Part shown: piece by piece, positions 14,686 through 21,331 of the stretch
Position numbering within the stretch: the stretch's first letter is position 1
How the letters are laid out: each line of letters begins with the position of its first letter
Source: Candidatus Aenigmatarchaeota archaeon
Lineage (GTDB): Archaea > Aenigmatarchaeota > Aenigmatarchaeia > QMZP01 > QMZT01
DNA length: 32,110 nucleotides
Direction of reading: 5' to 3'
NCBI GenBank assembly: GCA_021162425.1
Contig: JAGGYQ010000075.1
Span: forward strand, 1 to 32,110
Position numbers and translations under genes: made by a program
Notes under the pieces: generated by a model
The model's database searches: none
Told to the model about the DNA's origin: nothing
Seen by the model: the letters and a program-made list of their open reading frames with translations, nothing else

Positions 14686-15489
14686 CTATGCCCTGTGAAG
14701 CAGCACGTATTTTATTATATTGGCAGCAGCAACTGAACTTCTTGAATAAAAATTATCAGGGGCACCCTCGACAATATCCATGCCTATGATTCTATCTTTC
14801 GGAATCCTGCCAATGATTTTCACAAGCTCCTCGAACTTCATACCGCTTGGTTCAGGCGTCCCAACATCGCTTATGTCAAGGACATCAAGGTCAAACGTTA
14901 AATAAATAGGATTTTTTATACCTCTAAGCGTGCTTTTTATTCGGCATTTCTTGAGGATTCTCTCCTCTTCACCAGACCATGCGCGAGTGCCTATCTGGAC
15001 AAGCTCAAAACTTTTATCTTTTGCCACATGATATGCCCATGTTAAATGGGAGAATTTTCCCCCAAGGAAATTGGGGTAAAGGTCTCTGTGGGCATCAAAG
15101 TCAATGACTGTTATCTTTTCATAAAAAAGTTTGAGCGAACGGAGAATGCCAAGCGTTATTAAGTGGTCTCCCCCAAGGAATACAGGAAAAATATTCGGAT
15201 TTGATTGGAAGATTTGCTTTATCGTATCTTTTATCCTTGAATATGTGAGACTCCAGTTCCCAGGCACGACCTCGACATCCCCCAAATCACAGAATTTATA
15301 TATCTTAAAAATATTCTTTTTTGTTTTTGGGTCGTAACCAAACAGATTCTTTATGGCCTCTCGGATGAATACGGGCGCGAATCTCGTTGGTTTACCTGTC
15401 TCTGAAAAATCCCATGGTATGCCGAGAAGGGCAACATCAGACTCTTCAACTGGAAATTCAAAATCAAATGTTCGCTTCACATATAGCAT
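14686..15489 (-). CDS. speB: Ureohydrolase (agmatinase/arginase family)
   Basis: LGGDHLITLG, DFDAHRDLY, LTFDLDVLDISDVGTPEPSGM metal-binding motifs. Confidence 0.9.
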   Translation of the reverse strand: MLYVKRTFDFEFPVEESDVALLGIPWDFSETGKPTRFAPVFIREAIKNLFGYDPKTKKNIFKIYKFCDLGDVEVVPGNWSLTYSRIKDTIKQIFQSNPNIFPVFLGGDHLITLGILRSLKLFYEKITVIDFDAHRDLYPNFLGGKFSHLTWAYHVAKDKSFELVQIGTRAWSGEEERILKKCRIKSTLRGIKNPIYLTFDLDVLDISDVGTPEPSGMKFEELVKIIGRIPKDRIIGMDIVEGAPDNFYSRSSVAAANIIKYVLLHRA

Positions 15490-15533
15490 AAAAATATGAT
15501 AATATGAGATTTTAAATTATTTGCAAAAAGTTA

Positions 15534-16351
15534 GCGTGTCTAAAATCCCTCTCATACCTCTTCATTTCAAATCTTGAATTCCATATTATGAATTACCGTG
15601 CTGCCCCAATTTCAGGATTAAGGGATTGATATGAAAGTCAGGGACAACGCACCTATCACTATTATTGGTATTGTCAGCGCTATGATGATGGCTAGGGCAG
15701 TCCTGCCAACTGTTATACTCTGGTATTTCATTATTCCCATTCCATGGAGAACCAATGCCCATATGGCTACGAATACGTTCACCAACGGTATCCAACCTAA
15801 AAGGTAGGGCGGTGTCTGCCCATACACAACAGCCTTTAGCGTCTGTTCCAGACCGTTCCTCGCCCCGACTACATATGCCCATAAGTGAAGCCAGAGTCCC
15901 CAGATGATCGAACCTATTGTCAGACCAAGATATCCCAGAACCAAACTAATCACGAACATCATTGGTGCTGCGAGACCCTCTGCATAGGTTGGTATCATTC
16001 CTGTCAGAAAGCCCATTGACATAGTCGTTACCAACGATCCGAGGATTGTCGTTACCAACGCGAGAACCAGCATGTACTTGAATGCCTCTGTGAGCTTCGT
16101 CTCCTTCTCGTTCTCAAAACTCACCCCAGGTGATCTCAAAAACGAAATCCCTTTTTTCAGATATTTCATGAACTTCACCCTATAAAAAATTGGATTGTTG
16201 ATTTAAATTGTTTGGATGGACCCATGTTTGACCTGACTAATGCATTTGAAGGCAGAAACACGACATATTGAAGGTTATCACTTATCATGTCAAGGCAAGA
16301 CACAATTGTGTGTTCTTGTGATGTCATTTGTGTGAATAATTAGACACGCTC
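15534..16351. mobile_element. Transposase-less TIR element (B) carrying a Yip1-family gene
   Basis: Left end GCGTGTCTAA (15534-15543), right end TTAGACACGC (16340-16349) plus TC; flanked by CAAAAAGTTA (15524-15533) and CAAACAGTTA (16352-16361), 9/10 identical direct repeats. Confidence 0.6.
15618..16178 (-). CDS. Yip1-family multi-pass membrane protein
   Basis: Multiple hydrophobic segments; PGVSFENEKETKLTEAFKYMLVLALVTTILG and VVYGQTPPYLLGWIPLVNVFVAIWALVLHGMGI are Yip1-like. Confidence 0.8.
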   Translation of the reverse strand: MKFMKYLKKGISFLRSPGVSFENEKETKLTEAFKYMLVLALVTTILGSLVTTMSMGFLTGMIPTYAEGLAAPMMFVISLVLGYLGLTIGSIIWGLWLHLWAYVVGARNGLEQTLKAVVYGQTPPYLLGWIPLVNVFVAIWALVLHGMGIMKYQSITVGRTALAIIIALTIPIIVIGALSLTFISIP

Positions 16352-16358
16352 CAAACAG

Positions 16359-16751
16359 TTACGACCTTACATTTTTTATAAGTATCCTCTCGCCGATCTT
16401 CCAGTATTCTACTTCTTTCCCCGGCTCTATTTTAGACTTGAGGTCTTCTGGTATGTTGCACTCAAACATGGAGTAGTCTTCGAGGTCCATGAGCTGTGCG
16501 CTGTCACCACTTACAGATATTACTTGTGCCCACTTCTTAAGGATTATGGGAACAGTGCAACTTGCTGACGCGGGTTTCAGAAGCGTTCGCTTTTTCCCGT
16601 CAAATATCCCAACAGCCTCCACCCTTGCTTTAGCAGCGCCGTGCTTTCCGGGTTTAGATTTTGATATTTTTGTGACTTTGCATGGCTCGCCATCTATCAT
16701 GACATAAGAACCAGGCTTAAGGTCCTTAATTTCAGCAACCTTTTCGCTCAT
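16359..16751 (-). CDS. eif5A: Translation initiation factor aIF5A (hypusine-containing)
   Basis: GEPCKVTKISKSKPGKHGAAKARVEAVGIFDGKKRTLLKPA; hypusine-site Lys in PGKHG. Confidence 0.97.
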   Translation of the reverse strand: MSEKVAEIKDLKPGSYVMIDGEPCKVTKISKSKPGKHGAAKARVEAVGIFDGKKRTLLKPASASCTVPIILKKWAQVISVSGDSAQLMDLEDYSMFECNIPEDLKSKIEPGKEVEYWKIGERILIKNVRS

Positions 16752-19894: not shown

Positions 19895-20046
19895 CGTCCC
19901 GGGCCGGAGTGATGCACGAAGCCCCATCCGGAGCAAACAGCCAATTGAAATTCAAGCCATGCTTCGAACCGGCGACCTTTCGGTTTCCGCGATTCTTAAC
20001 AGCCGAACGCTCTATAGCGACTGAAGCACCGCTGAGCTACCGGGAC
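19895..20046 (-). tRNA. tRNA-Asn(GTT) with insertions in D-loop, anticodon loop and T-loop
   Basis: GTCCCGG TA GCTC-AGCGGT[14]A-GAGC G TTCGG-CTGTTA[12]A-CCGAA AGGTC GCCGG-TTCGAA[54]T-CCGGC CCGGGAC G; removing the inserts gives a canonical 72-nt tRNA-Asn. Confidence 0.88.
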
Positions 20047-20094
20047 ATGTAATAGTTATAAACATTTTATAAATAAAAATTTTAACCTATGGCA

Positions 20095-20237
20095 GAGCGT
20101 GTCTAAAAATAACTCTGTTTCCTTCCCTCTTCGTCAAAATCGGTATGCTGGAAAAATAAAGTCCATACGAAATCCCCCTCGCCGAGACATTTTCCCAAAT
20201 GAAAATCAACAAACTGCGGGAATTGTTAGACACGCCC
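20095..20237. mobile_element. MITE-like element (A), 143 bp
   Basis: Ends GAGCGTGTCTAAAAAT / ATTGTTAGACACGCCC (near-perfect TIRs); perfect 10-bp direct repeat ACCTATGGCA at 20085-20094 and 20238-20247. Confidence 0.75.
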
Positions 20238-20239
20238 AC

Positions 20240-21331
20240 CTATGGCAAGAAGTCACCATTCTTTATCTTCTCTGGGAGATATTTTTCTGATATGAACTTT
20301 ATACCTTTCGAGGACAAGGCTTCAAGTTCGAGTTTATACCCAACTTTTAGCATATGCCTCAACTCTTTCTCCCACTCTTTCGGTTTAAACCATATATAAT
20401 TTAACAATTCTTTTATCCTTTTCTCATCTCCCTTGTTCAGTTTGATGGTTACGTTCTTAGGTATGTTAAACTTCTCGACGTCCATCGTTGTTAGACCAAC
20501 AAACTTTGCATCAGGTGTCCCCAGACGGTCAGAAAGGAAAGAAAGATTGATTGAACCCTGTTTTATGACCGAATATATGTAATATCCCCATGGATCGCTG
20601 TCAGTTAGGACGTATATAGGAAGACCAAGCTCTGTGTGTAACCTGTTTATGAGTCTTCTAGCTCCTCTTGCAGGTTGACCTTTCCCAGTCACTATCAAAC
20701 AGTTCTGCTTTTTCCAGAACTTGTCCTCGTTCAATCGCTGCCATACAGCATCTTTCTCTATTACAAGGACGTAATCGGCCCTTACATTCTCGAATTTTAT
20801 AATCTCTTCCTCTACATTGCTTGGTATTGCCCACCCAGATGAACCCATTTTCGCGCAATTTATTCTATCTCCTGCATCATTTATTATAATGTTCCCAGCA
20901 AGATAGCCTTTTCTATCAGCTATCAGATGAAGCTTTTCTCGGAGCGTATCCAAGGCTGCTTCAAGGTCTTCCACCACAGGGTCTGACTCACTTTGGTCCT
21001 CAAACGTGTTCTCATGTGTTCCAGGAATCGTTCGTTTCAATGCGTAGTAGAGATCTCTTATCGAGGTCGTGACACCTTGCTCTATTATCTTCTTGCATTC
21101 AGCTGCAACGAGCAGAGTTTGCATGAATTTTTTTGTGTGTGCAATGTTCAGGTAATACCTCTGGCTGGTTTTAGTTCCCAGTCTGATGAGTTTTCTCTTC
21201 TCGTCGAAGTATATGTTCGAGAGTGACCTGATGGGAATCTCTATCTTCGGATTCTCTTTTTTCTTTATCTGCTCCAGCACATTCAGACCCAGCTTCCTCA
21301 GCTTCTCCACTTCTTTTGACTTCATTTTCAT
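20240..21331 (-). CDS. top6A: DNA topoisomerase VI subunit A
   Basis: IEIPIRSLSNIYFDEKR, SIRDLYYALKRT (catalytic Tyr), VIEKDAVWQRL, TGKGQPARGARRLINRL, DSDPWGYYIY. Confidence 0.97.
   Translation of the reverse strand: MKMKSKEVEKLRKLGLNVLEQIKKKENPKIEIPIRSLSNIYFDEKRKLIRLGTKTSQRYYLNIAHTKKFMQTLLVAAECKKIIEQGVTTSIRDLYYALKRTIPGTHENTFEDQSESDPVVEDLEAALDTLREKLHLIADRKGYLAGNIIINDAGDRINCAKMGSSGWAIPSNVEEEIIKFENVRADYVLVIEKDAVWQRLNEDKFWKKQNCLIVTGKGQPARGARRLINRLHTELGLPIYVLTDSDPWGYYIYSVIKQGSINLSFLSDRLGTPDAKFVGLTTMDVEKFNIPKNVTIKLNKGDEKRIKELLNYIWFKPKEWEKELRHMLKVGYKLELEALSSKGIKFISEKYLPEKIKNGDFLP

Follow-up and report, generated by a model that had tools for sequence, protein, structure and literature searches.

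We analysed a 32,110-nucleotide stretch of DNA from Candidatus Aenigmatarchaeota archaeon (contig JAGGYQ010000075.1, assembly GCA_021162425.1; hereafter the window), in which three minus-strand genes lie side by side. These encode an arginase/agmatinase family protein (speB-like; 14686-15489; Pfam Arginase, E = 1.2e-49), a 186 amino acid membrane protein with a Yip1 domain (15618-16178; Pfam PF04893, E = 2.7e-11) and the translation factor aIF5A (16359-16751; Pfam IF5A-like_N, E = 1.5e-17), referred to below as eIF5A. The Yip1-family identity of the middle gene, proposed earlier in a sequence-only reading of this DNA, is borne out by the domain score (44.1 bits; Pfam gathering score 28.6). Its nearest orthologue, in relative G006, is 61% identical. 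Six Yip1 orthologues share 33 invariant alignment columns; the C-terminal tail of the host protein is shorter than those of the other five, and a second frame seems to hold a frame-shifted continuation of it. Viewed by eye, an A+T-rich stretch upstream of the Yip1 start, reaching to the right end described below, could hold a promoter.

Ends and target duplication of the Yip1 unit

The Yip1 gene lies within a unit (15534-16351) bounded by terminal inverted repeats (TIRs). The left TIR (15534-15543, plus strand) is an exact copy of the 10-mer GCGTGTCTAA, and the right TIR (16340-16351, minus strand) reads GAGCGTGTCTAA, with the complement of GCGTGTCTAA at 16340-16349, so that the 10-mers bracket 15534-16349. 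As the sequence-only reading had noted, these 10 bp are identical to the ends (20097 and 20226) of a 143-bp element elsewhere in the window. The full end of the element family is 12 bp (GRGCGTGTCTAA); the right end of the unit has all 12, and the left end has 10 of them and is 2 bp short, reading TAGCGTGTCTAA as a 12-mer with one mismatch. Immediately outside the unit lie the two copies of the target site duplication (TSD), CAAAAAGTTA at 15524-15533 and CAAACAGTTA at 16352-16361, the last three bases of the latter being the stop codon of eIF5A. These copies match at 9 of 10 positions, a likeness that had been noticed earlier and that held when nine neighbouring registers were tried, the others giving at most 4/10; what the earlier description had missed is that the right repeat begins 2 bp outside the 10-bp TIR. 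This offset reflects a true end of 12 bp, from which the first two bases have been lost in the left copy: the 9/10 match requires a left end of 10 bp, and with 12 bp it falls to 2/10.

We searched the host genome (954,499 bases in 75 contigs) for the repeat, with the reversed pattern as control. The exact 10-mer occurs at 17 places (control, 0) and the 12-bp end, allowing at most one mismatch, at 23 (control, 2). At the same tolerance the window holds four matches, all of them exact, where 0.91 (sd 0.93) were expected and only 1 of 100 shuffles reached four. Chance occurrence of the TIRs, which had been named as the outcome that would overturn the earlier proposal, is rejected by these counts, and 10-bp TSDs are present at other copies as well. 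The 10-mer forms the terminus of a DDE-type insertion sequence (IS) resident in the genome and of its miniature derivatives (MITEs).

Likeness to this IS extends beyond the TIR at the right end of the unit (16270-16349, minus strand), which is homologous to the corresponding end of a truncated IS copy on host contig C54 (74% identity over about 60 bp). The local alignment score of this pair beyond the TIR is 53, a value that none of 500 shuffles reached (best shuffle, 33). For the left inner end we detected no homology to the left ends of the C54 IS (207/500 shuffles scored as high), of an IS in relative G011 (314/500) or of the 143-bp element of the window (117/500). The loose resemblance of the left ends of the two window elements, remarked on previously, is thus not supported; homology lies instead at the right end, and is to the resident IS. 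Inside the unit, the only frames of at least 60 amino acids are Yip1 and one that overlaps it, and there is no transposase gene. With a single copy in the host genome, the unit offers just one instance of its transposition as a whole.

The resident insertion sequence and its miniature elements

The 143-bp element (20095-20237) is a MITE flanked by a perfect 10-bp TSD (ACCTATGGCA at 20085-20094 and 20238-20247). A DNA search of the host genome found copies of 90-92% identity on contigs C2, C33, C39 (two) and C43, and matches confined to the ends on C41, C2, C49, C54 and C55, of which C41 and C2:49930 belong to a second MITE type, judging by their inner ends. We measured the TSD on eight TIR pairs and on the pair formed by C25 and C54. 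A 10-bp duplication was evident at the window MITE (10/10), C41 (10/10), C25/C54 (10/10) and C43 (9/10), and the outer repeats were weak at C33 (5/10), the first C2 pair (C2a, 5/10) and the two C39 pairs (C39a and C39b, 3/10 each). Four insertions besides the Yip1 unit (three MITEs and one deleted IS copy) therefore match at 9-10 of 10 bp, and the target duplication of this element family is 10 bp. Beside the window MITE, positions 19900-20050 resemble a tRNA gene on visual inspection, perhaps one containing an intron; neither ARAGORN nor Rfam reported anything in the window.

An IS with matching ends, the search for which had been suggested earlier, is present in the host genome as the truncated copy C54:1-742, whose 204 amino acid transposase frame stops early. 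The outer sides of C25 and C54 carry a common 10-bp repeat, AAGCGAAAAA, which suggests that they are probably two sides of one insertion lying over a contig break. In addition, C55:1-182 and C56:1-182 share at their starts one end of a second IS type, which makes it probable that one or more complete IS were lost at contig ends. The complete form of the IS with the family's ends has probably likewise disappeared at the ends of C25, C49, C54, C55 and C56. The earlier statement that there is no transposase thus holds for the Yip1 unit but not for the genome, where the truncated IS shares these ends and fragments of another IS lie at contig ends.

The transposase fragment resembles those of IS5-like DDE elements in a weak match to the NCBIfam model IS5_2 (E = 0.00095), but this only available fragment is truncated, its 18.7 bits lie far below the curated cut-off of 140, and it has no Pfam transposase match and no useful PDB or PHROG match. 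Relatives of the transposase occur in three other genomes of 100 (G008, G011 and G013), and the same three were recovered among 156 genomes at class level; none was confirmed in a collection of genome contigs, in viral contigs or in plasmids, and neither the 100 relatives nor the 156 genomes yielded a complete transposase of this IS. In G011, which belongs to another family of the order, the same TIR precedes the same transposase start. G008 has a broken relative that reaches further and has a right end reading GAGCGTGTCTGG; we take its YESIFG stretch to supply the third catalytic residue of a DDE enzyme. Compared with this relative, the C54 copy seems to end before that residue. Among described elements, the ISH8 subgroup of IS4 shares the 10-bp duplication and differs in its 5'-CAT ends, which are absent here, as far as the available excerpt describes that subgroup (PMC2266710).

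The insertion site and the conserved neighbourhood of Yip1

A survey of eIF5A matched 36 of 41 genomes and returned 30 loci, one of them that of the host. None of the 29 loci from other genomes holds Yip1, so the conservation of Yip1 at this position, which would have spoken against an insertion, was not observed. Among the loci returned, speB lies directly behind eIF5A in the same order in G004, G006 and G009 only. Removal of the unit and one TSD copy predicts an eIF5A-speB gap of 41 bp, and the gaps in G006 and G009, counted by hand, come close to this at 37 and 31 bp; a look for an empty site in relatives had been suggested earlier. In G004 the gap is about 1 kb and holds two other reading frames (L122:7220-8198), which leaves two genomes as the basis for the empty site; one of these frames appears nucleotidyltransferase-like by eye.

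Matches to Yip1 itself (E <= 0.001) were found in 36 of 100 genomes, including the host, which has a single one; nine named records encoding Yip1 relatives are labelled Candidatus Aenigmatarchaeota (seven), Nanoarchaeota (one) and Euryarchaeota (one). Viral contigs and plasmids gave no confirmed relative of Yip1, and no TIR-bounded Yip1 was seen in the relatives. We fetched Yip1 with its flanks from twelve of these genomes. A gene that we take to encode NAC directly adjoins Yip1 in G001, G003, G004 and G028 and is separated from it by one gene in G017; no NAC turned up in the fetched stretches of the other seven, among which that of G006 starts inside Yip1 at a contig end. A presumed P-type ATPase gene follows Yip1 in G001, G006 and G028, with a small gene between them in G001. 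The cargo, which had been called unusual, is therefore nothing exotic: the gene belongs to the family and, in relatives, has its conserved home beside NAC.

At the corresponding locus of the host, PolB, NAC and the ATPase gene follow one another in this order without Yip1, and NAC and the ATPase gene are about 34 bp apart. The host ATPase (C65, L120:6353-9031), the only one matching in the genome, groups with that of G026, from another family (100/99), and not with those of G006 and G001; it is 66% identical to the G026 protein and 57% to that of G006. As judged from these comparisons, the ATPase gene beside NAC and PolB is probably a xenologous replacement in place, among neighbours that look native. 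This grouping indicates that the NAC locus has been altered by more than the loss of Yip1. The distance from PolB to the ATPase gene, taken alone, is 567 to 684 bp in G015, G021, G023, G033 and G036, so that an ATPase gene next to NAC with no Yip1 does not in itself amount to a scar. Simple excision at NAC is doubtful as the whole story, the ATPase there being of another family's type.

Nature of the unit and origin of its cargo

We consider it very likely that 15524-16361 is a mobile insertion cassette (MIC), in which two IS ends bracket a Yip1 gene that takes the place of the transposase gene, the transposase acting in trans. The core of the earlier proposal, a non-autonomous TIR element with a passenger membrane-protein gene, is thereby retained on the strength of the TIR counts, the TSDs and the Yip1-free eIF5A loci. 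In the sequence of events that we envisage, a resident IS with the same ends would have supplied the helper transposase, and the unit would have inserted at the stop codon of eIF5A, duplicating 10 bp and parting eIF5A from speB with neither gene broken; Yip1 would presumably be expressed from its new position. The gene may have come between the ends by capture from its home beside NAC, where the copy was later lost, or may have been brought in from a close relative.

It is very improbable that Yip1 is an ordinary resident gene flanked by TIR-like words through chance or through two separate MITE insertions. Such an origin would suit a left end that lacks 2 bp and shows no IS likeness past its 10 bp, but it is at odds with the genome-wide TIR counts, the 10-bp repeat across both outer borders, the IS homology of the right end and the empty site in G006 and G009. 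How the cassette obtained Yip1 is a closer matter, on which gene trees bear. In the PolB tree (20 genomes), G003 and G006 pair (94/90) and are joined by G001 and then by the host, and a tree of eIF5A and TFB (7 genomes) places the host outside G003, G006 and G007. The Yip1 trees, in contrast, pair the host with G006 (95/92 with 13 rows, 93/94 with 9 rows). When G003+G006 was constrained on the Yip1 alignment the likelihood fell by 13.9 lnL (p-AU 0.012), and by 18.2 lnL (p-AU 0.0056) for G003+G006+G001, both groups having been named after the trees had been viewed. Since the groups were chosen in this way and the alignment has only 209 columns, we weight the two origins that follow nearly equally.

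There is close to an even chance that the cassette arrived with its Yip1 from a G006-like relative, the native copy being lost as genes on the NAC side were replaced. This would account for the conflict between the Yip1 and PolB trees, and the grouping of the ATPase at the old home with G026 makes it probable that this locus received foreign DNA. On the other side, a short Yip1 alignment may have produced the conflict as noise, no TIR-bounded Yip1 was seen in a relative, no Yip1 homologue was confirmed in viral contigs or plasmids, and G006 is not among the three genomes with a relative of the transposase. A serious possibility, though short of even, is that the lineage's own Yip1 was captured between IS ends beside NAC and moved to the eIF5A-speB gap, with loss of the home copy. 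The neighbourhood of NAC and Yip1 in five relatives (a near one in G017), native-looking NAC and PolB in the host with Yip1 missing beside them, the single Yip1 in the genome and its position with the orthologues of the family (weakly, 76/79) all point this way; the pairing of host and G006 Yip1, with the host outside G003+G006 for PolB, and the swapped ATPase, which simple excision fails to explain, point away from it. If the lineage's own gene did move, and we hold this no more firmly than the possibility just stated, old address, new address, TSD and empty sites are all visible for a single-copy gene taken out of a conserved neighbourhood, and the locus would be a mapped example, from a relative of the Aenigmatarchaeota, of a conserved gene moved by a transposon.

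MICs, as described in the available excerpt of PMC3913671, consist of IS inverted repeats around a gene that replaces the transposase, are flanked by a TSD, and are moved or presumed to be moved in trans. Like MIC231A1 of Bacillus cereus and mic-qnrD of Proteeae, the Yip1 unit has an IS inverted repeat at either end (as in the C54 copy), holds a gene but no transposase gene, and has a TSD (9/10 bp). It differs from them, within the same excerpt, in its archaeal host, in a different IS with a 10-bp TSD, and in its cargo, which is no resistance or accessory gene but an ordinary one of the lineage, with a known home at another place in relatives; movement in trans, part of the MIC description, is presumed for the Yip1 unit. 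The MITEs of the same IS share its 12-bp ends and, where detectable, its 10-bp TSD, but they are 135-148 bp long, lack a conserved gene and occur in several copies, whereas the unit holds a conserved gene of 186 codons and is thus not a short non-coding element. In titles and abstract openings of the literature on MICs, IS passenger genes and archaeal MITEs and IS, we found no such unit.

The gene movement seen in this small, uncultivated archaeon is clear but in essence of a familiar kind, and it adds nothing new on transposition itself. Gene-order decay in small archaeal genomes has rarely been tied to an agent; here the change of address of one family gene can be tied to defined IS ends, with an empty site in relatives. 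It suggests that cassettes, known in bacteria around resistance or accessory genes in the accounts available to us, may have ordinary genes as cargo in archaeal relatives of the Aenigmatarchaeota.

Finally, five of the eight measured TIR elements (20095-20237, 15534-16351, C39b, C41 and C43) end 3-11 bp from the 3' end of an ORF, and the TSD covers the stop codon at top6A and at eIF5A. This placement near ORF 3' ends may reflect target choice or selection.
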